A stretch of DNA of 64,000 nt from Sinomicrobium soli (GTDB lineage: Bacteria > Bacteroidota > Bacteroidia > Flavobacteriales > Flavobacteriaceae). The notes below the pieces were generated by a model. The model was not told where the DNA came from, made no database searches, and worked only from the letters and a program-made list of their open reading frames with translations. The stretch covers positions 62,001 to 126,000 of the forward strand of contig NZ_QLNV01000009.1 in NCBI RefSeq assembly GCF_003285545.1. Reading direction: 5' to 3'. The number at the start of each line of letters is the position of its first letter. Position 1 is the first letter of the stretch. Both the position numbers and the translations under genes were made by a program. This document shows, in pieces, positions 4,777 through 17,592 of the stretch.

Positions 4777-4870
4777 AAATAAGAGAGCCCACGCGTTGTA
4801 TATGCTGTTCGTATTTAGTGAGTGTCATTGACCTCACCTTACGGGTGTACAAGCACCCTCGATAGACCTC
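4777..4870 (-). ncRNA. Candidate dCas12f guide RNA (scaffold plus guide)
   Basis: Read leftward from the dCas12f stop codon. A hairpin GGGTG-CTTGTA-CACCC is followed by a second hairpin GTGAG..CTCAC whose inner part GTCAATGAC can extend the stem, then a single-stranded stretch ending CATATACAAC at 4795. TTGTA in the first loop can pair with TACAA of that end, a pseudoknot like those of Cas12f and TnpB guide RNAs. What follows (4794 downward, GCGTGGGCTCTCTTAT) is therefore the guide. An 8-bp inverted repeat, AGGTCTAT/ATAGACCT (4862-4869 and 4769-4776), brackets scaffold and guide and may mark a processed or paired end. No second repeat or array is visible, so this is a single-guide unit. It is inferred from position, hairpins and the target match at 6966-6981. 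Confidence 0.7.
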
Positions 4871-5968
4871 TTAATCTGTGATGAATTCAATACCTGCCTT
4901 CTCGGCTTTGTACTTTATTTTTGTCATTAATTCATAATAACTCCAGTTCCGCAATACAAATTCTTCCTCCTTAGCGATCTCGATCTTGTCCTCCTGATTT
5001 AATAAAATGAGCGTTCCCGCCTGATGTTTAATGCAAAAATCGATCAATCTCCTGCTGTATACGTGTATACAATGGTGCACATAATTACTTTCCGCATTGC
5101 GGAGTTTGTTCACAGCTTTCAGTTTTCTTTTGGCCCCTTTGCTCGATCTGCAATGGGTCGCCCCGATCTGCGCCCTTCTAAGGGCTGCCTGTATGGCCAA
5201 TCTTCTGTACAGGAACTCTTCCCTGGTGCCAATGGTGAGCCTGGCGTTAACAGTCTTCACTACAATGGGATATTCAAGTGACAAAGAAGCCTCCGCTATC
5301 ACTTCGGGTCTTAGGCCATGTTTTTCTTTTTCGATTTCAAAAACAGGCAGCCAGAAGATTTTGCCATCCTTTAATTTGATATGGGAAGTACAAAGTTTGG
5401 TCTCCCCTTTTATCACCTGCTCCAATAGTCTTCGTTTGTCGGTGTGATCTTTTCCCAAGTAAGTACGAAAGGGGATTTGGAACAAACGAAAGCAAAAGAC
5501 CTGTTTCTCAGTATTAAAGGATAATCCGCTAAGACACTCGGGGCCAAAGGGAAAAGCCATGTCCCTCCTGAAGTTCTTCAGCGAGCGTTCGCCTTTCCAG
5601 TATTCGGGCTTATTTTTGTTAAAGGAGGCGATCAGGGTCCTGTTCAGGTTGGACAATATGTTTGTAGGGATGTCCCCTTTAAAGCGATCTGATACCACGC
5701 GATAGGTCGTATTGATACGGGAGCGTTGTAAGATTCCTTGTTTGTCTTTTTTTTCATCGGCCAGTTTATACTTTATTCCCTCTGATAGATAGAAAAATTC
5801 CTTGATCATTTCCTGTATGTACAAATGGGAAACAATAAGGTTAGCGGCTCTAAAACACCGATTCTGCCACTGGTAGAGTTTATCCAGTTTTTCCTTCCGT
5901 TCTTCTTTAGTAGGTAAATCAACCAGTAACTGGATCTTTCGGGTCAGTTTCAGAGTAGACTTTCCCAT
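4871..5968 (-). CDS. Nuclease-dead Cas12f/TnpB-like RNA-guided DNA-binding protein
   Basis: 365 aa. Residues 1-205 match the WED/REC-like half of Cas12f/TnpB, and 220-365 are a degenerate RuvC fold. The RuvC-I strand reads EASLSLEYPIVV (226-237), where active relatives have a DLGIKYP-type motif: the catalytic Asp is Ser228. The RuvC-II strand GTLILLNQEDK (318-328) has Leu323 in place of Glu. The protein stops at YKAEKAGIEFITD, so RuvC-III and the CxxC zinc ribbon are absent, with no frameshifted remains downstream. It should bind guide RNA and DNA without cutting. It starts 1 nt after the sigma factor stop codon, so the two are one translational unit. Bacteroidota dCas12f-sigma pairs have recently been reported to recruit RNA polymerase by guide RNA (recalled, not checked). 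An active IS605 TnpB is excluded by the lost residues. Confidence 0.85.
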   Translation of the reverse strand: MGKSTLKLTRKIQLLVDLPTKEERKEKLDKLYQWQNRCFRAANLIVSHLYIQEMIKEFFYLSEGIKYKLADEKKDKQGILQRSRINTTYRVVSDRFKGDIPTNILSNLNRTLIASFNKNKPEYWKGERSLKNFRRDMAFPFGPECLSGLSFNTEKQVFCFRLFQIPFRTYLGKDHTDKRRLLEQVIKGETKLCTSHIKLKDGKIFWLPVFEIEKEKHGLRPEVIAEASLSLEYPIVVKTVNARLTIGTREEFLYRRLAIQAALRRAQIGATHCRSSKGAKRKLKAVNKLRNAESNYVHHCIHVYSRRLIDFCIKHQAGTLILLNQEDKIEIAKEEEFVLRNWSYYELMTKIKYKAEKAGIEFITD

Positions 5969-5969
5969 A

Positions 5970-6773
5970 TCAGGCTGATTGTGGTTGCTGTTGGTGTTTG
6001 TCCTGCAATAGCTTGTACGCGGACATAAACTGGCTGTGCACTTCCTTCTCGGATAAATTTAGCTTAGTGGCAATGGAGGCAAACGAATACTTCTTTTCAT
6101 ATCGTAGGTTCAATATCCTTGCCTGTTCCTCGGTCATACTTCTTTGGACTTTCGTTGAAGAGGAAGACTTTTTTTGGGGTTGCAAGAACTGTCCTTGGTC
6201 AATGATGGTCTTGATATTCCTAATAGCCATCTTTACCCCATGACAGGTTTCGTTTATACTTGTTCCCATAACATCGGAAATGGCTTTATACCGAAAGCCG
6301 TATTTTAAACAGAGTTCAATTAAATGCCTTCTTTCTGCATTGAGCAAGGGTAATACGCTTTTGATCCGGTCGAAGGCCTTTTGTTCTAACTCCTGGTCTT
6401 CCAGGTTTTCAGACACACTTGCCGGATCGTATCCTGCCATATAGTCCTGGTAATTGTCGTAGTCCTCTAAGGAATTGACTTTTCTGAAAAACTTATTCCT
6501 GGGTTTAGTGTAGTATGAAATACATTCCCTTTTCATTACAAACTTTAAGAAATAGAGAATATGCTCAGGTCTTTCTATCCTGTCCCTATGAACCCATAGC
6601 TTTAAAAAAGTATCTTGAACTAAGGATTCTACGACAAAATGATCATTTAGCATTCGTTTACCAACCCAAAAGATGATGCCACGATATTGAGCATGAATTA
6701 GTTCTAAAGCAGAAGGGTCACCATTTTTTAATAGTTCAAAATATTTTGGTAGGGGACCGTGTATGCTTTTCAT
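5970..6773 (-). CDS. ECF-type sigma factor with extra C-terminal sigma4-like HTH, partner of dCas12f
   Basis: 267 aa from the ATG at 6773; the longer frame (to 6836) begins with TTG and lacks a placed ribosome site, so the ATG is preferred. Sigma region 2 covers roughly residues 20-95 ([11 protein letters not shown] through WVHRDRI and [12 protein letters not shown]). Region 4 covers about 142-192 ([26 protein letters not shown]). After a Ser/Gln linker comes a second region-4-like HTH (about 212-260, [32 protein letters not shown]). Usual ECF factors are about 170-200 aa and end after one sigma4. The stop codon is 1 nt from the dCas12f start. No anti-sigma factor or SusCD pair is adjacent, which argues against ordinary membrane-signal control and for guide-RNA direction by the partner. 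Confidence 0.85.
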
Positions 6774-6917
6774 AAGTATAAAGTTTTGCAAATAGGTTTT
6801 GTTTGGAGTACTTAGGGTAGAAGACCTCCCTTGCAAGACTTCATAGTGATCCTATGCAGAAACCTTTGCTTTAGAAAAGAAGAGTTATTGAGAAAGCCCA
6901 TGATAGAAAATGGATGG

Positions 6918-6936
6918 GCGTGGAACTCTACTTATC
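6918..6936 (+). repeat. Degenerate inverted copy of the guide-matched site
   Basis: Plus-strand GCGTGGAACTCTACTTATC resembles the minus-strand GCGTGGGCTCTTTTATC at 6981-6965, differing by small insertions and substitutions. The outer GGGCGTGG (6916-6923) pairs perfectly with CCACGCCC (6976-6983). The two copies thus form an imperfect inverted repeat of about 20 bp per arm. It may be a second weaker target facing the XRE gene, or a folding arm of the leader. Confidence 0.45.
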
Positions 6937-7045
6937 GAACAGGGGTACTGGCATACCTTACAGCGATAAAAGAGCCCACGCCCGGGTCGTGAGCAATCTT
7001 ACTTATCCTCTCGCTGTAAATGAAAAGTGCCAGTTTTCTGTTCGA
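6935..7045. repeat. Three nested perfect inverted repeats enclosing the guide target
   Basis: TCGAACAG (6935-6942) pairs with CTGTTCGA (7038-7045), ACTGGCA (6947-6953) with TGCCAGT (7028-7034), and TTACAGCGA (6958-6966) with TCGCTGTAA (7011-7019), all perfect and in nested order. The central loop (6967-7010) contains most of the guide-matched site. It could be an RNA leader structure upstream of the sigma gene, a DNA cruciform, or paired binding sites for a dimeric regulator. Confidence 0.6.
6966..6981 (-). promoter_or_regulatory. Guide-matched target site upstream of the sigma factor
   Basis: Minus strand GCGTGGGCTCTTTTAT matches the guide GCGTGGGCTCTCTTAT at 15 of 16 positions, including the first 11 without a break; matching stops after base 16. 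The base 5' of the match (6982) is G on the same strand, consistent with the minimal 5'-G adjacent motif recalled for dCas12f-sigma systems. The TAM-distal end points toward the sigma start at 6773, so polymerase recruited here would transcribe the sigma-dCas12f operon. The match is direct; autoactivation is inferred. Confidence 0.65.
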
Positions 7046-7108
7046 GATTCAAAGCAATTGCTTCCAATATTTTCTATTTGAAGAATTGCAAATTTATATT
7101 AATCCATA

Positions 7109-7116
7109 CAAATATA
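7109..7116 (-). promoter_or_regulatory. Candidate -7 promoter element for the sigma-dCas12f operon
   Basis: On the minus strand this reads TATATTTG, an exact match to the Bacteroidota TAnnTTTG -7 element. No clear -33 TTG precedes it; the palindrome at 7133-7150 occupies that place instead. It would give a long leader carrying the nested inverted repeats. Confidence 0.4.
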
Positions 7117-7132
7117 GTAAAAAATCATAAAC

Positions 7133-7150
7133 GGTAAGATATATCATACC
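7133..7150. promoter_or_regulatory. Near-perfect palindrome, likely operator
   Basis: GGTAAGATATATCATACC is an 18-bp palindrome with a single mismatched pair. It lies 29 bp before the XRE start and just upstream of the leftward -7 element, where a dimeric HTH repressor could control both directions. XRE autoregulation is the simplest reading. Confidence 0.5.
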
Positions 7151-7179
7151 ATTATTTTTTGAGATAAGTTAGAAATTTA

Positions 7180-7476
7180 ATGATTCCAAATAAAAGAAGA
7201 GTGACTGAAAAGGAAAAACTTGGGAAGTATTTATTAGAACTTAGGGAAAGAATACATAGTAAAGAGTATGATAAAGAACATATTTCTCAACAAGAACTCG
7301 CTGACAGTAATACTGGCTTAACCAAATTCTTCATAGGGACTGTTGAAAGAGGAGAAGCTAACCCTACCTTAGATAAATTGATCCTTTTGGCCAAGGCATT
7401 GGATTTAAAGACAATAACTCTACTTGAGTTAGAAATTAATGTAGATAAGTACATTAAAGAATTAAAGACGAAATAA
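7180..7476 (+). CDS. XRE-family helix-turn-helix regulator
   Basis: 98 aa. The HTH_3 domain covers about residues 13-80: KLGKYLLELRERI, then ISQQELADSNTGLTKFFIGTVERGEANPTLDKLILLAKALDL, with the ERGEANPTLDKLI pattern of Cro/CI-type proteins. The short tail is charged. A palindrome sits 29 bp before the start. The gene is divergent from the sigma-dCas12f operon and 511 bp ahead of the DISARM-like operon, both on the same island, so it could regulate either. Small XRE proteins commonly repress defence operons; a direct link here is inference. Confidence 0.8.
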   Translation: MIPNKRRVTEKEKLGKYLLELRERIHSKEYDKEHISQQELADSNTGLTKFFIGTVERGEANPTLDKLILLAKALDLKTITLLELEINVDKYIKELKTK

Positions 7477-7987: not shown

Positions 7988-10360
7988 ATGAGCAAAACCC
8001 TAACCTATCTAACTGACATATCCTCAAAAGCCAAGGGATACCTTAACAAAGAGTATCACTTGGACAAATTCAATTTCTCTGAATTTGAACTGATAAACTT
8101 TTTCCTGTTAGATACGGCTATTGGAAAAGAAAAAAGCTTACTTCTTAAGACCACGGACAAAAGCCTAAAACACGAAATCTACTTACCAACATTTATTTCA
8201 ATTGCCATTTCTTTGTTTTTCAAAAATTATTGCGATGATATTACGGCCTATAAGAATGGTGACATCTTGCAAAAAAACAGAAAGAGATACGAATATGTGA
8301 GAAAAAACCCAGACGGCACCCATTATCTAAAAAACTCAGAAGGGCATTACCCAAGTGTAAGTACTAAAAGTTTAAAAAAGTACACAAAAACGAATGCTCA
8401 TCTTTCTAACCGAATTGTAAGGACAAACTTAAACCACTACAAGAACTTCTTCAACCAAGTCTTTCCCAATATCGGTCATCAATTACCTTCGGAATTCAAA
8501 TACAAGGCAGTTATAATTCTCGACAAAAAGCAATTTTTGAACGAACTTAAAAACCATACAATCGAGGACATCAATTTGCTAAAAGCAATTCCGTTTCAAT
8601 GGGTAAATAAAAACGGACGGTTTGAAACCTCTCAAATTCCTGTTGACCCTATGATTTACCTTGCCCCGGACTATGAAACGGCCAAGGATTACATCATCGA
8701 TGATAAAACCGATGTTGAAATTGAAACGGTGGTTTTGATGGGCAAAAACAAATATCAGGAAGAAGCATTAATAAAACTAAAAAGAGATTTAAGGAACGAA
8801 AAAGTGCCATTTTCTATCCTTGTTGGAACGGAAGATATTGAAGACGAAAATAATCATTTCCTTAAATGGAAATGGACTACCACAGAAATTGCATCTTTAA
8901 AAGAAACCGAAGAAGCTGAAATTTCAACGATTGAAGTCATCAATGATGACTTCATCAATGAGATTGCCAGTTTCAAGAACTTTCTAAAAGAAATAGAGAA
9001 TGACAAAAGTGTAGGACTTCCAAGTTTTACAGGAATAAAGAAATTGCTTTATTCATTAGTGCTTCCTGATACGAATGGAAGACAAAACAATCAAATTGAG
9101 TATATAAAGTACATCTTAGACAAAAAGTATATCGAGATAATCAAACAAGAATTTTTTAACCAAAACCTCGACCCTACCGAAACTTTACAGACATTTTCTC
9201 ATAGAAAAGAGGAACTTTTTAATTCATTCGAAAACAGAAAACTCGAATCCCTACATAATGCTTTGTTTGACTATATTATAGTCCCTGACCGGTTCGAAGA
9301 TGTTTGGAAAGACGAAACCAACTTTAAGGTCATTGGTTTCAAGAATTTCAAAAAAGGGATTGTCAAACCTAAGTTGAAAAAGAATTTTTTATTGCTTAGC
9401 CCTTTTGTTTATGGGCTTCCTCCTGATGAATTATTATCCATTTTGAGAAATACGTTTCACAAGTTTACCATTTTGGCTTATCCTGAAGAAATTGAAGCTA
9501 TTGAAACACTAAATCAAAGATTTGAACAGGAAGTAGCCTCAGAACTTGGAACCAGAGTCAGGGAACACTTGTGCGGAATAAAATACCCTATAGAAGAACC
9601 AAAAGCAGAACCGGAAAACATTGCCGAACTTATTGGCAGGATAAGCGAAAAAGATCGTTCCCAAGTCAGCAACTACACATACGAAGCTGCTGAATCCGTC
9701 AATTACAAGATTGAGTATTATGACGGAGAGTCTGTGGTTTTTGAGGGAACGAAAACGGTTTTGACAGAAAATAATGGCCATAAAAAAAGAATACGGATTT
9801 GTAATCTTGTGGTCGGGGACGATATAAGGGTTTATGCTAACCCTTCCAAAGAAATCCTGTTTGATACCGCAAGCCAACAGGATGAAAATGGCAGACTGAC
9901 TGAAATTGACAAGCACGTGAAGCTTTGGAAGCAATGTTTGTCAGACCACTTTAAAAACAAGGGGTTCAGCTATACCGAAGAAAGGCTTTTAAATGACTTA
10001 AAAAAAGAGGGGTTGTCCATTAACAGTACTGCGACATTGAAAAATTGGCTCAACCTGGAAAGCCCAGTTAAATTTCCTCAGAGAAAAGAGGATTTATTAG
10101 CCATTGGCAGATGTGTTAAAAATCCGGTTTTAAACCAGCATATAGGCTCAGTTATCAGAAGTAAAGAAACATATAATGGTTTGATGATAGCTTTGGGAAG
10201 AGATTTAAGCGATGAGGTGATGGACTTTATTCTTGAAGGGAATAAAGGGCAAATTTTATCCACCTTTTCAGATGAAGAAATAGAATCTATATCAGACAGA
10301 TCTGCACCATTAAAAACAATTAAAAGCATTCAAATAACCGAAGAAGATGAATCAGAATAA
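7988..10360 (+). CDS. DrmE-like protein of a DISARM-type operon
   Basis: 790 aa with no enzymatic motif that I can name. It has the size and position of DrmE, the class 2 DISARM protein encoded just before drmA, and the C-terminal half has a segment like FTILAYPEEIEAIETLNQRFEQ (about residues 490-511) reminiscent of that family. The N-terminal half is Lys/Asn-rich and helical, with a possible alpha/beta core around 165-270 (YKAVIILDKKQF, VVLMGKNKYQEEA). It overlaps drmA by 14 nt, so the two are coupled. The role of DrmE in phage defence is not known. Assignment rests mainly on context; an unrelated protein that merely occupies this place is possible. Confidence 0.55.
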   Translation: MSKTLTYLTDISSKAKGYLNKEYHLDKFNFSEFELINFFLLDTAIGKEKSLLLKTTDKSLKHEIYLPTFISIAISLFFKNYCDDITAYKNGDILQKNRKRYEYVRKNPDGTHYLKNSEGHYPSVSTKSLKKYTKTNAHLSNRIVRTNLNHYKNFFNQVFPNIGHQLPSEFKYKAVIILDKKQFLNELKNHTIEDINLLKAIPFQWVNKNGRFETSQIPVDPMIYLAPDYETAKDYIIDDKTDVEIETVVLMGKNKYQEEALIKLKRDLRNEKVPFSILVGTEDIEDENNHFLKWKWTTTEIASLKETEEAEISTIEVINDDFINEIASFKNFLKEIENDKSVGLPSFTGIKKLLYSLVLPDTNGRQNNQIEYIKYILDKKYIEIIKQEFFNQNLDPTETLQTFSHRKEELFNSFENRKLESLHNALFDYIIVPDRFEDVWKDETNFKVIGFKNFKKGIVKPKLKKNFLLLSPFVYGLPPDELLSILRNTFHKFTILAYPEEIEAIETLNQRFEQEVASELGTRVREHLCGIKYPIEEPKAEPENIAELIGRISEKDRSQVSNYTYEAAESVNYKIEYYDGESVVFEGTKTVLTENNGHKKRIRICNLVVGDDIRVYANPSKEILFDTASQQDENGRLTEIDKHVKLWKQCLSDHFKNKGFSYTEERLLNDLKKEGLSINSTATLKNWLNLESPVKFPQRKEDLLAIGRCVKNPVLNQHIGSVIRSKETYNGLMIALGRDLSDEVMDFILEGNKGQILSTFSDEEIESISDRSAPLKTIKSIQITEEDESE

Positions 10361-13300
10361 TGCAGACTTTTTGGCACGTGAAAAATTCCAAAATAGGATA
10401 GAAAAAGGAATGATTGGCCCCGGGTCTGACACTTGGGGATTGCCTGATGGCGAAGAAATTATTTCCAACGATACTCCCCTACAACGCTACTTTTCGGGAA
10501 TACTTTTCCCGAATAAAGATACCGTAGCTACACAAGCTGAATTAGACGCAGCAGAATTGCAAAGTGAAACGGAAATAGATGACTATGAGGATGAACAAAA
10601 AACAGAGGATGAAGATAATGGAGACAAGCCCCAATCGAGCAATGAAAACGAATCGGACAAAATAAGCAAGACTAATTTCTTTCCAACTAATATCGGGCTT
10701 TCTGTTTGCGTACCTAAAGACACCAATTCACTTGAAGTAACTTTTTCTTTTGGGCTATACTACCAGCCAAAAAACAAGGACATAAAGATTAAGATTTCGG
10801 AACAGGGATACCGTTCTTTTTTTGATGAAAACATCCCATATCAACTTCCCTTTAAAGACATTCTGAAATACAAAGATGGCTTTATGTTTTTAGAAAGAGA
10901 ACTTGGTGGATTTGCCGGAGGAAAAGGAAAGTCCAGAAGCGGGGAATATTTGGCCTTTGACGAGTATAAAAAGACTACCAATTTAAGAGATTCGTCCGCT
11001 GAGTATTTTGTAGATTTACTCGAAAGAATCATAAACCAAGGGCGGATATGGAAAAGAATCAACTACAGTACTACTCTCGAAGTTCCCGTTCAATCTACTA
11101 AGGAACCTATTCCATTAGTATTAGAATATGACACCCACAAAAACACAAAAGTTGGCTATAATTTACGTGTCATAAATCAAGAGGGTAGGCGGTTTGTGAA
11201 AATCCAATTGGTCAATCTATCCGAAAAACACCCGGCAAATAGGTTTTCAAATAAAAATGAAACACTCAACGTAAAGAGCCTTTTCCAAGCTCAGATAACA
11301 GTTAACTCTACCGATTTTCTTCCCTTTGAAAACAAAAATGCTAAGGCAAAATATTTTGAGGATGATGAAGCCAAAGAATTGGATTTTATTTACCGTTCAG
11401 TAAAAAATTACGCGATCGGGCATAATTGTTCTACAACTTGGGATGGCGTTCAAAGCGTAATAAAAACCACATTCCTTCCCATTCAAGATATAAAAGATGT
11501 TACCAATACTTTCGGAAAAGGAGACAAAAAACTAAATGATACCCTGAACATTCACAATCTCTCGGTTTGGGGGTTTGACCAAAAGACAACTATTGAGCAT
11601 CTCAATTACTTTGTGAATCAATACAGTGATTGGATTGACCAACAAAAGGTGTTGAACAAAAAAGAATCACAAGAAAACCAAGCAATTGGCGGCGGAATCA
11701 TTAAGAGGCAAATAGAAAACCTTAACCGATTAAAATCTAACATCCAATTGTTGACAGATGATGATGCTTTCAGAGCATTCCAACTTGCCAATACAGCAAT
11801 GTTTATCCAGTTAATCACGTCTAATGATACGGATTACGGTAAAACCGAAAAAGAATTGTCAGAAGCACCAACCCAAAACCTCAATGATTTATTCTTTTTC
11901 CAAAATTATGATGCCGAACAAAGAATTTCCGAAGGGAAAATAAAATTTATCCCCGCATACAGACCTTTCCAACTTGCCTTTTTATTATTAAGTATTGATG
12001 GCGTTGTGAACCCTGAAGGCAAGTCGAGAAAAGAAATTGTTGATTTGATTTGGTTTCCTACCGGTGGTGGAAAGACAGAAGCATATTTAGCGGTTACGGC
12101 CCTAACAATTGCCTTTCGGCGACTGAAAAATGAAGAAGGCTATGGAGGAACTTCTGTTATAATGCGATATACATTGAGGTTATTGACCGCCCAACAATTT
12201 GAAAGGGCGTCCCGGTTAATTTCTGCCTTGGAGTTTTTGCGAAAACAGTTTGAGTTTTCAAATGACTTAAAAGACGAACCAATTACTATCGGGTTGTGGG
12301 TTGGAATGGGATCAACCCCAAATAAAGTTGAAGAGGCAAAAAAACAAATCAATGCCATTGAATCAGAGTGTGAGAAGAAAAACGGAAATCCGCAAGGGAA
12401 AAATACCTTTCAGATAAATAGTTGTCCTTGGTGCGGAACCAAATTAATCACAAAAAAACCTGCAAAAAGAAGTGGCGAACTCAAATGGGCACACGGTTTT
12501 TCACATAGTAAGAAGAATGGATTTACAATTTCATGTGTAAATGATTCTTGTGCTTTTTCAGACAAAATCCCCGTACAAGTTGTTGATGAAGAATTGTATG
12601 AAAATCCCCCAACGCTTTTATTTGGGACGGTCGACAAATTTGCAATGCTTGCTTGGCAGGAAAAAGCCCATAATTTTTTCAATTCTTTGGTTAATGACAA
12701 GTTACCCCCTGACTTAATCATACAAGATGAATTACACTTATTGAATGGCCCCCTTGGCTCAATTACCGGCATTTTTGAAAGCGTTATTGAATCCTTGGCA
12801 ACAAAGAATGGGATAGCACCAAAAATAATTGCTTCGACTGCAACCACGCGAAATACGCAACACCAAGTAGAAAAATTGTATGGTAACAGAAGTGTGAATG
12901 TATTTCCACCTTCGGGAATCCATTATAGTGATAGTTTCTTTGCCAGAGAAAGTAACACGAGTAAACGAAGGTACATCGGGTTTCTGCCAACTGGAAAGAC
13001 TTCAACCGACACTCAATTACAGTTGCTTGCGCATCTGCTTGTAGCAAGGTTGGAAGTTTATGCGGGTAGGGAAACCAAAGACACTATCAACAATTATTGG
13101 ACAATTGTATCTTACTACAACAGCTTAAAGGATGTCGGGAAGATTTTCAATAAAGTCGGAGACGAAGTTTCCACCTTTACTTCTACGCTTCAACACCGGT
13201 TATCCAACCTATTTCAAGGTGATTTTCGGGATTATACTTTCAATTATTTTGGGATTCCTAACCGAACTCAAGAACTTACGAGTAGGGTTGAAAGCACCAA

Positions 13301-14024
13301 AATTAAGTCCGTTCTAAGCGAAATTGAAAAGCCGTTTAAAACAGAAAAGATAGACCGAAGTCAAATTGGTAATACGTACATAAATGATGTTGTCGATTTT
13401 GTTTTGGCTACCAATATGATTTCCGTAGGGATTGACATCAGCAAACTCAATGTGATGCTTTTAAATGGAATGCCGAAAAACATAGCGGAATATATTCAGG
13501 CTTCGAGTAGGGTTGGTAGAAGTACGCAAGGCTTGGCCATTTCATTATTAAACCCAAACAGGGCAAGGGAAAAATCATATTTTGAGCATTTCAATAATTT
13601 CCACCAGGCGTTTTACAAAAGTGTCGAGCCATTGAGCATTACACCTTTCACGGAAAATACTATCGAAAAGATGATTACAAGCCTTATGGTGGCTTATGTT
13701 AGGAACAAACTACCGGGTAGGACAGGAGGCAAAGATGTTGTCCACTTTCAGAAAGAAGACATTAATGGTTTAAAATTATTGGTTAAGGAGCGGTTCGGCA
13801 ACCATTCCACCGAAAGCAATTGGTTTGAAAAAAGACTCGATGAACTTGCGTATGATTGGATAGACAGGGTACGGAAATCTGGAGTGAAGGAATATAAACA
13901 GTTACTAAAAAAACCTTCTGAAAAAGACGAAAATCAAGATTGGGTGGTGATGCAATCTATGAGAGAAATAGACAGCAACACTTTTATCAATATCAAAGCA
14001 AATTTTGGAAATGGGAAAATTTAA
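10347..14024 (+). CDS. drmA: DISARM helicase DrmA
   Basis: 1225 aa superfamily 2 helicase. Walker A is WFPTGGGKTEAYL (about residue 570), the DExH-type motif II is QDELHLLNGPLG (about 791-802), motif III is ASTATTR (about 829), and the motif V/VI region SVGIDISKLNVMLLNG...QASSRVGRS spans about 1028-1060. A zinc ribbon is inserted between motifs I and II: CPWCGTK near 693 and CVNDSCAF near 730. The N-terminal 500 residues include an acidic linker (about 65-110) and the PGSDTWGL/YFSGILFP start typical of DrmA. With DrmB it forms the core DISARM complex that binds and unwinds phage DNA. It overlaps the next gene by 20 nt. Confidence 0.88.
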   Translation: MNQNNADFLAREKFQNRIEKGMIGPGSDTWGLPDGEEIISNDTPLQRYFSGILFPNKDTVATQAELDAAELQSETEIDDYEDEQKTEDEDNGDKPQSSNENESDKISKTNFFPTNIGLSVCVPKDTNSLEVTFSFGLYYQPKNKDIKIKISEQGYRSFFDENIPYQLPFKDILKYKDGFMFLERELGGFAGGKGKSRSGEYLAFDEYKKTTNLRDSSAEYFVDLLERIINQGRIWKRINYSTTLEVPVQSTKEPIPLVLEYDTHKNTKVGYNLRVINQEGRRFVKIQLVNLSEKHPANRFSNKNETLNVKSLFQAQITVNSTDFLPFENKNAKAKYFEDDEAKELDFIYRSVKNYAIGHNCSTTWDGVQSVIKTTFLPIQDIKDVTNTFGKGDKKLNDTLNIHNLSVWGFDQKTTIEHLNYFVNQYSDWIDQQKVLNKKESQENQAIGGGIIKRQIENLNRLKSNIQLLTDDDAFRAFQLANTAMFIQLITSNDTDYGKTEKELSEAPTQNLNDLFFFQNYDAEQRISEGKIKFIPAYRPFQLAFLLLSIDGVVNPEGKSRKEIVDLIWFPTGGGKTEAYLAVTALTIAFRRLKNEEGYGGTSVIMRYTLRLLTAQQFERASRLISALEFLRKQFEFSNDLKDEPITIGLWVGMGSTPNKVEEAKKQINAIESECEKKNGNPQGKNTFQINSCPWCGTKLITKKPAKRSGELKWAHGFSHSKKNGFTISCVNDSCAFSDKIPVQVVDEELYENPPTLLFGTVDKFAMLAWQEKAHNFFNSLVNDKLPPDLIIQDELHLLNGPLGSITGIFESVIESLATKNGIAPKIIASTATTRNTQHQVEKLYGNRSVNVFPPSGIHYSDSFFARESNTSKRRYIGFLPTGKTSTDTQLQLLAHLLVARLEVYAGRETKDTINNYWTIVSYYNSLKDVGKIFNKVGDEVSTFTSTLQHRLSNLFQGDFRDYTFNYFGIPNRTQELTSRVESTKIKSVLSEIEKPFKTEKIDRSQIGNTYINDVVDFVLATNMISVGIDISKLNVMLLNGMPKNIAEYIQASSRVGRSTQGLAISLLNPNRAREKSYFEHFNNFHQAFYKSVEPLSITPFTENTIEKMITSLMVAYVRNKLPGRTGGKDVVHFQKEDINGLKLLVKERFGNHSTESNWFEKRLDELAYDWIDRVRKSGVKEYKQLLKKPSEKDENQDWVVMQSMREIDSNTFINIKANFGNGKI

Positions 14025-17507: not shown

Positions 17508-17510
17508 ACG

Positions 17511-17592
17511 TACCTCGGGTGGGAATCGAACCCACACTCCCGAAAGAACCGGATTTTGAATCCGGCGCGTCTACCAATTCCGCCACCGAGGC
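17511..17592 (-). tRNA. tRNA-Leu (anticodon CAA)
   Basis: The minus strand gives an acceptor stem GCCTCGG pairing with CCGAGGT (last pair G-T), a D arm GGCGGAATTGGTAGACGC, an anticodon stem CCGGA/TCCGG around loop TTCAAAA (anticodon CAA), a long variable arm and a T arm GTGGGTTCGATTCCCAC. 82 nt with discriminator A; CCA is not encoded. Its 3' end coincides with the edge of the accessory island, so it is the likely attachment site. Confidence 0.95.

Follow-up and report, generated by a model that had tools for sequence, protein, structure and literature searches.

Among the systems described so far, the closest to the locus analyzed here are sigmaE-dCas12f, in which transcription reportedly starts at a set distance from the R-loop with a G as the target-adjacent motif (TAM), and TldR, which to our knowledge is a TnpB-derived repressor without a sigma partner. 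The 5'-G targets of sigmaE-dCas12f are said to lie upstream of susCD-type genes. PMC13418256 describes TldRs as RNA-guided, TnpB-like, nuclease-dead repressors. Here we analyze a stretch of 64,000 nucleotides from Sinomicrobium soli (Flavobacteriaceae; contig NZ_QLNV01000009.1, positions 62,001 to 126,000; hereafter the window, whose first letter is position 1) that carries a sigma gene, a gene for a nuclease-dead Cas12f (dCas12f) and a guide RNA. The system is a confirmed member of the known sigma-dCas12f kind, and the sites that it naturally addresses appear to be the switch arms of leader RNAs of an undescribed family, one copy of which stands in front of the system itself. The parts of the system and its nearest target are as follows.

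5970 to 6773, minus strand: extracytoplasmic function (ECF)-type sigma gene, 267 amino acids from its ATG, with a TTG at 6836 as alternative start (open reading frame, sigma domains, RpoE match)
4871 to 5968, minus strand: nuclease-dead Cas12f gene, 365 amino acids (open reading frame, alignment of relatives, solved-structure matches)
4795 to 4872, minus strand: guide RNA scaffold with three covarying helices (R2 model, 88.9 bits)
4779 to 4794, minus strand: guide GCGTGGGCTCTCTTAT, directly after the scaffold end ATACAAC
6966 to 6981, minus strand: guide-matched site, 15 of 16 positions, preceded by a G (6982) as TAM and oriented like the sigma gene (16-nt direct repeat)

A preliminary description of this DNA had proposed that an ECF sigma gene and a Cas12f/TnpB-like gene lie 1 nt apart, and the two open reading frames bear this out: the sigma gene is the 5' member (5970–6836 on the minus strand if the TTG start is used, 5970–6773 if the ATG), and 1 nt separates it from the dCas12f gene (4871–5968, minus strand). 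A sequence search against solved structures is, at the level of sequence, decisive for the identity of both products. Chains named 'Nuclease-deactivated Cas12f' were the top matches of the window protein (9n9c/9n9m/9n9o/9n9q, 2.1e-190) and the 'RpoE' chain 9n9q_C matched the sigma protein at 2.4e-105; a domain search recognized regions 2 and 4 in the latter. For the predicted fold of dCas12f (pLDDT 79.8, pTM 0.57) the first-ranking entry was 9n9m, 'dCas12f-gRNA-DNA complex (partial R-Loop)', with 77% identity in the fold alignment. The closest solved structures are a dCas12f and RpoE pair, in agreement with the earlier assignment to the dCas12f-sigmaE kind. A profile search, of the kind proposed as a check at the same time, did return TnpB/Cas12f matches, all of them under the curated cut-offs (NF040570 1.3e-16, Cas12f2 4.9e-6).

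The loss of catalytic residues, likewise claimed beforehand, was evident in alignments. The RuvC-I Asp of active Cas12f (9nzo/9nzr) corresponds to Ser228 of the window protein, the RuvC-II Glu falls in an alignment gap adjoining Leu323, and the C-terminal part of the protein is absent, because the match stops about 90 residues short of the 9nzo/9nzr chain ends. Across 68 aligned proteins (67 relatives and the window's, after removal of nine rows, L045, L046, L058, L062 and L070–L074), residue 228 was Ser in 65, Thr in two and Ala in one, and residue 323 was never Asp or Glu; the alignment that could have revealed an intact RuvC-I Asp or RuvC-II Glu found neither intact. A single scan yielded 73 dCas12f loci, 72 of which belong to Bacteroidota by record title, the other (L073) being a weak match outside the phylum. 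A sigma homologue lies upstream of dCas12f at 69 of 71 loci, with a gap of 1 or 2 nt in 64 of those 69 (L070–L074 were left out of this count, and L024 and L037 yielded no upstream open reading frame). The genome of the window itself holds three dCas12f copies, with identities of 100, 94 and 80%, and in an even sample of the family the protein occurs in 8 of 199 genomes.

The structured scaffold and guide that had been noted directly after the Cas12f gene were also recovered, with covarying helices and the guide at 4779–4794 on the minus strand. The R2 scaffold model, built from L076 and 38 of the 70 sources searched, was found in 69 of these sources, the exception (L044) ending at a contig edge. 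Four of five covariation measures were attained by none of 500 shuffles, and the fifth by one; in the even family sample the scaffold is present in 9 of 199 genomes. Several observations concern guide RNAs elsewhere. One scaffold match (L144, at G021:C1:23445) lies in a genome that has leaders and no dCas12f match. An extra degenerate scaffold, probably decayed, sits between the sigma and dCas12f genes of the third copy in the own genome (L153, C41:217559–217636) and ends in ACAAAG, not ACAAC. Some dCas12f genes are followed by tandem guide RNAs (L142, L143, L146, L147, L155, L035 and L052), each with a whole scaffold and mostly with different guides. Besides the GCGTG class, guides of a CCTTCCC type, a AAAAATCCGATC type and a TTGTGGGATACACGC type were seen. 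We rejected a CRISPR array, since wherever guide RNAs are multiple each one inspected has a whole scaffold and no short-repeat array.

The guide and its site form a 16-nt direct repeat (4779–4794 and 6966–6981). On the minus strand, 6982–6966 reads G-GCGTGGGCTCTTTTAT, and the sigma ATG follows about 190 nt farther downstream; position 6981, where the preliminary description had ended its system, is the far end of this site. Many relatives have a similar G-preceded site at the equivalent position, oriented like the sigma gene (a survey of dCas12f loci that left out L004, L024, L070, L071, L073 and L074). When the own genome was searched at up to two mismatches to the guide, eight places were found, namely two guides and six sites, and all six sites lie in copies of one leader element; the sites on contigs C1 and C22 have no mismatch, those on C10, at C41:116542 and in the window have one each, and that at C41:216584 has two. 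What goes beyond the preliminary description is this target of the guide within the window, the structured leader in seven copies in the own genome, and the two further dCas12f copies. Transposon ends were rejected as an account of the repeat, which consists of a guide and, within a covarying RNA, the site that it matches. The leader and its surroundings in the window comprise the following.

6912 to 7093, minus strand: structured leader element (model R1, 181.8 bits)
6985 to 6994, minus strand: 5' arm of the apical hairpin (GCTCACGACC), pairing with the guide-matched arm in the hairpin fold
6916 to 6935, minus strand: 3' tail (ATAAGTAGAGTTCCACGCCC), pairing with the guide-matched arm in the terminator-like fold
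7109 to 7116, minus strand: TATATTTG, the −7 box of the leader promoter, which we take to be of the Bacteroidota type
7130 to 7153, minus strand: imperfect palindrome preceding the promoter, a putative operator for the divergent regulator
7180 to 7476, plus strand: divergent XRE-type helix-turn-helix (HTH) regulator (open reading frame, HTH domain)

The leader is about 181 nt long, with folding energies of −52 to −71 kcal/mol in six copies tested, and its R1 model was built from 33 sequences. Two folds are conserved in it, and the terminator-like one conflicts with the inner helices of the long hairpin fold. Among 70 distinct sequences, 94.9% of cells in the hairpin fold were paired, with 245 double-change cells against 81 in shuffled alignments, and 98.1% of cells in the terminator-like fold, with 42 against 12; slid controls were paired at only 31–57%. 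None of 500 shuffles attained nine of the ten measures taken for the two folds, and 18 of 500 attained the tenth ('further pair types' in the hairpin); both folds were derived from the same alignment (A7) on which they were tested, and this alignment omits leaders with cut flanks. U-G pairs occur on the leader strand, and therefore an RNA of this sense is suggested. The guide-matched segment sits in the arm common to both folds. At the level of sequence, then, the genes, the guide RNA, the guide-site match with its G, and a leader family with two covarying folds are demonstrated.

Outside the folds, the surroundings of the leader are also conserved. A TAnnTTTG or TAnnTTAG box lies at −40 to −15 in 47 of 73 copies (3.8 in shuffles), and palindromes of varying sequence precede it (their arms average 7.2, compared with 4.8 after shuffling). 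Beside the leader, an open frame of at least 60 amino acids starts in the divergent direction in 61 of 64 instances, with Pfam HTH_3 in 40 of the 61 and other HTH models seen as well; these frames (A4), like the genes beyond them (A6), were taken mechanically, with the L108 gene corrected by hand. Downstream, where the leader does not precede sigma-dCas12f, 26 genes (A5) were assessed, partly chosen by hand (L113, L115, L124 and L127 were changed from the automatic choice) and omitting L109, for which no gene was found, and L103, the C42 copy: Plug and CarboxypepD-like domains, both of SusC-type receptors, were found in 16 of 26 each, sigma-70 in three and HEPN in two. In the own genome (gene names partly by eye), the C22 leader precedes a SusC and a SusD-like gene, the C10 leader precedes ECF sigma, FecR-like and SusC-like genes, and the C1 leader precedes a HEPN protein gene. 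No model of Rfam release 15 matched the leader, and a known leader or riboswitch family was accordingly rejected as its identity. The leader had no match in phage or plasmid records, nor, when searched for as one exact 22-mer, in viral contigs, and a phage or plasmid origin was rejected on this ground. We found no description of it in the literature, in a search that covered open-licence PMC papers only and is weak evidence of absence. Two matches to other RNA families were seen in passing: a Group II intron D1-D4-4 match under the gathering score in L077 (675–807, minus strand) and, in L216 (45–127, plus strand), an rteR small RNA family match at a distance of about 1.4 kb from one of the distant copies of the leader.

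The correspondence between guide and leader extends well beyond S. soli. Of 39 genomes or loci having both, 28 contain a guide that agrees with a leader in at least 13 of 16 positions; 31 of 71 guides do so, against a mean of 0.075 for shuffled guides (the comparison used retrieved leaders longer than 150 nt, and not every leader of each genome was included). A G precedes the matched site in 29 of these 31; the guides begin in varying registers (GCGTG in 22, GGCGT in six, CGTGG in two and GGCAT in one), and a G is nearly always left in front of the site; 13 mismatches fall in positions 1–9 and 37 in positions 10–16. A pattern of G plus 16 nt, searched at up to two mismatches in 32 dCas12f genomes, gave 75 matches against 10 for the reversed control: 37 in leaders, 20 that are guide-like by a preceding C (a class assigned by sequence only) and 18 others. 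Of eight of these others inspected by eye, five resemble guide RNAs elsewhere (L196, L199 and L201–L203), L200 lies inside a SusC-like coding region, L198 in an apparently coding stretch, and L197 is unclear. The L200 site (G218:C68, 54356–54372) is a perfect G-plus-16-nt copy, and a leader site of that genome lies about 1.3 kb upstream of it.

Leader and dCas12f also co-occur. In the family sample the leader is present in 37 of 199 genomes, comprising all eight with dCas12f and 29 of 191 without (Fisher 7e-7), and in five of the eight there are leader copies that do not stand in front of sigma-dCas12f (p 0.004). It was found in 23 of 26 dCas12f genomes reached through loci, of which at least two (G204 and G222) are probably the same as genomes of the family sample (G063 and G162). 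At 41 of 70 dCas12f loci a leader scores at least 150 bits, and in 40 it lies directly before sigma-dCas12f, always on its strand (29 of the 70 loci contributed to the model); L012, L028, L029 and L030 have only a weak remnant. Of the 26 genomes reached through loci, 21 had been picked because a sigma-dCas12f locus showed no upstream site nearby, and 17 of these have a full-length leader (at least 139 bits); in G216 one such copy shares the locus and precedes the sigma frame by about 2.4 kb. The leader extends to other families and classes of the phylum, with a match at E ≤1e-5 in 33 of 296 genomes, the seven genomes of other classes reaching only 1e-7 to 1e-9; 18 copies from these groups show the same plan by eye, and one (L221) precedes another sigma-dCas12f pair. 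Distant copies (L213–L220) have a different switch arm, mostly of the GGACGCGCTTTCTTAT type, with the same CTGGNA/TNCCAG-like core; several precede proteins with secreted-like starts, and an HTH neighbor was not seen in most.

Taken together, these findings make it rather probable that the window encodes a sigmaE-dCas12f-type RNA-guided activator whose sites are the switch arms of attenuator-like leaders, its own operon included. We infer binding by dCas12f, activation, the start position, and attenuation with its bypass, as follows. Each leader would be transcribed from a promoter of its own, in most cases next to the gene of a divergent XRE-type regulator, and would stand ahead of SusC/SusD, ECF sigma-FecR-SusC, HEPN or sigma-dCas12f genes. 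The dCas12f, loaded with the guide RNA that is produced immediately after its gene, would bind DNA that reads G and then GCGTGGGCTCNCTTAT, and the attached sigma would recruit RNA polymerase, which would start beyond the R-loop. Because the terminator-like helix has the guide-matched strand as its 5' strand, a transcript started downstream of 6966 could not form it; with the 3' strand at 6916–6935, this loss would be independent of the exact start distance. Genes controlled by the leader would in this manner switch from the XRE-side promoter and attenuator to a guided start that escapes it. The sigma-dCas12f operon would be among the activated targets, giving positive feedback, and its self-activation is likely. 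For the broader proposition, we judge the chances to be evenly balanced: a phylum-wide family of XRE-adjacent switch RNAs, serving SusC and sigma operons, would have been captured by sigma-dCas12f, whose guide copies the arm that both folds need, addresses most leaders, starts transcription past the terminator and keeps its own operon on.

Several observations weigh against this interpretation. The T-run (CCATCCATTTT) after the terminator-like tail is weak in the window copy. The leader is common where dCas12f is absent (29 of 191 family genomes), and its arm is equally conserved there, with 14 or more of 16 positions kept in 18 of 19 copies read; the leader and its arm therefore have a function of their own, and guide conservation may follow in part from the leader's own constraint. 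A leader match of 13 of 16 is lacking for 40 of 71 guides, 11 of 39 genomes or loci have none, and in three genomes with dCas12f and leader-type guides (G203, G217 and G219) our leader search found no leader. In the own genome, the diverged seventh leader copy (C42) has no site within three mismatches of the guide, and at three mismatches there is no excess of matches (20 in all, against 24 for the reversed control), so that only close guide matches count. The guide of the third dCas12f copy, CAAATTTTTCGGGTTTCC, has no place in the own genome within two mismatches except itself; at three mismatches it has 16 places, against seven for the reversed control.

The main alternative, which we regard as unlikely, is that the R-loop in the leader silences, blocking polymerase that comes from the leader promoter much as a TldR would, while the sigma serves other guides. 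With the TATATTTG box about 130 nt upstream of it, the site falls inside the presumed transcript, where bound dCas12f would be a roadblock, and dCas12f is without catalytic residues. However, 69 of 71 loci have a sigma homologue immediately before dCas12f, a dCas12f entry has been solved with an RpoE chain, and the leaders ahead of sigma-dCas12f all lie in its sense. In our view it is very unlikely that the system works on incoming DNA or on islands that bear the leader. Such a role would explain the siteless guides (G203, G217 and G219 again) and the defence-type genes found beyond divergent regulators, but the system has no nuclease, the leader was not found in viral contigs (searched with one exact 22-mer), plasmids or phage records, and at 40 of 70 loci the leader precedes the system itself.

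We hold it to be more improbable still that the guide RNA acts as an antiterminator in trans, pairing with the 3' tail of the leader and preventing the terminator, with DNA binding secondary. The guide is complementary to the tail at 6916–6935, with small loops, when the pairing is worked out by hand; the match to the DNA site, in contrast, is ungapped at 13–16 of 16 with a G in front in 29 of 31, whereas the tail pairing needs bulges. In Cas12f guide RNAs the guide is at the scaffold's 3' end, as it is here, and this too counts against antitermination. Finally, it is scarcely credible that the match is a functionless relic of a guide copied from the upstream leader: many guides have drifted or are siteless, but the match is kept across many genera whose dCas12f is 60–94% identical to the window's, the mismatches lie mainly in the distal half, and of 21 genomes with no site near the locus, 17 were found to have a leader.

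Beyond the divergent regulator, the window holds the DISARM-like operon that the preliminary description had placed alongside the system, and the tRNA that it had invoked is also present.

7988 to 10360, plus strand: 790-amino-acid protein with a DISARM DrmE C-terminal domain (DrmE_C, 1.9e-9)
10347 to 14024, plus strand: DrmA-like protein, DISARM-like (DrmA, 1.6e-190)
17510 to 17592, minus strand: tRNA-Leu

The gene sets beyond the divergent XRE-type regulators are very mixed, and the window's DISARM-like operon is one of many; the defence types seen there, among the matches listed, were KwaA in 2 of 40 and Cas1, AbiEi, QatA, methyltransferases and DrmE once each.

If our interpretation is correct, natural RNA-guided activation gains a defined regulon together with a reason for its targets: the guide would read an invariant attenuator arm, and activation and escape from attenuation would follow from the same base pairs. 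The findings also point to a family of RNAs, unmatched in Rfam release 15, that links XRE-type regulators with outer-membrane receptors and is present in Flavobacteriaceae and, with weaker matches, in further classes of the phylum.

Like attenuators and riboswitch leaders, the element upstream of these genes has two conflicting conserved folds, one of them mostly followed by a T-run; unlike them, it matches no Rfam family and lies mostly beside a divergent XRE-type gene. The window protein shares its fold and sequence core with active Cas12f (9nzo/9nzr and others), from which it differs in having lost the RuvC-I Asp and RuvC-II Glu and in lacking the C-terminal part; with these catalytic residues missing, the system is not a type V-F CRISPR-Cas system, and some relatives carry tandem guide RNAs with whole scaffolds. 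As an RNA-guided, nuclease-dead relative of TnpB/Cas12 the protein resembles TldR (PMC13418256), which represses and for which, in the portion of that source drawn on here, a sigma gene is not described, whereas the window has a sigma gene in the operon. With that gene 1 nt away and dCas12f as the closest solved chains, the window protein does not belong with the TldRs. It agrees with sigmaE-dCas12f (PDB 9n9c, 9n9m, 9n9o and 9n9q) in its dCas12f, its RpoE-type partner, the guide RNA downstream and the G before the target, and a 5'-G target before susCD-type genes is found here too, ahead of SusC and a SusD-like gene (the latter recognized by eye) on C22 of the own genome. What may set the present system apart from sigmaE-dCas12f as published is that the sites matched by its guide sit in the arm shared by both folds of a conserved leader RNA, the site before its own operon included.

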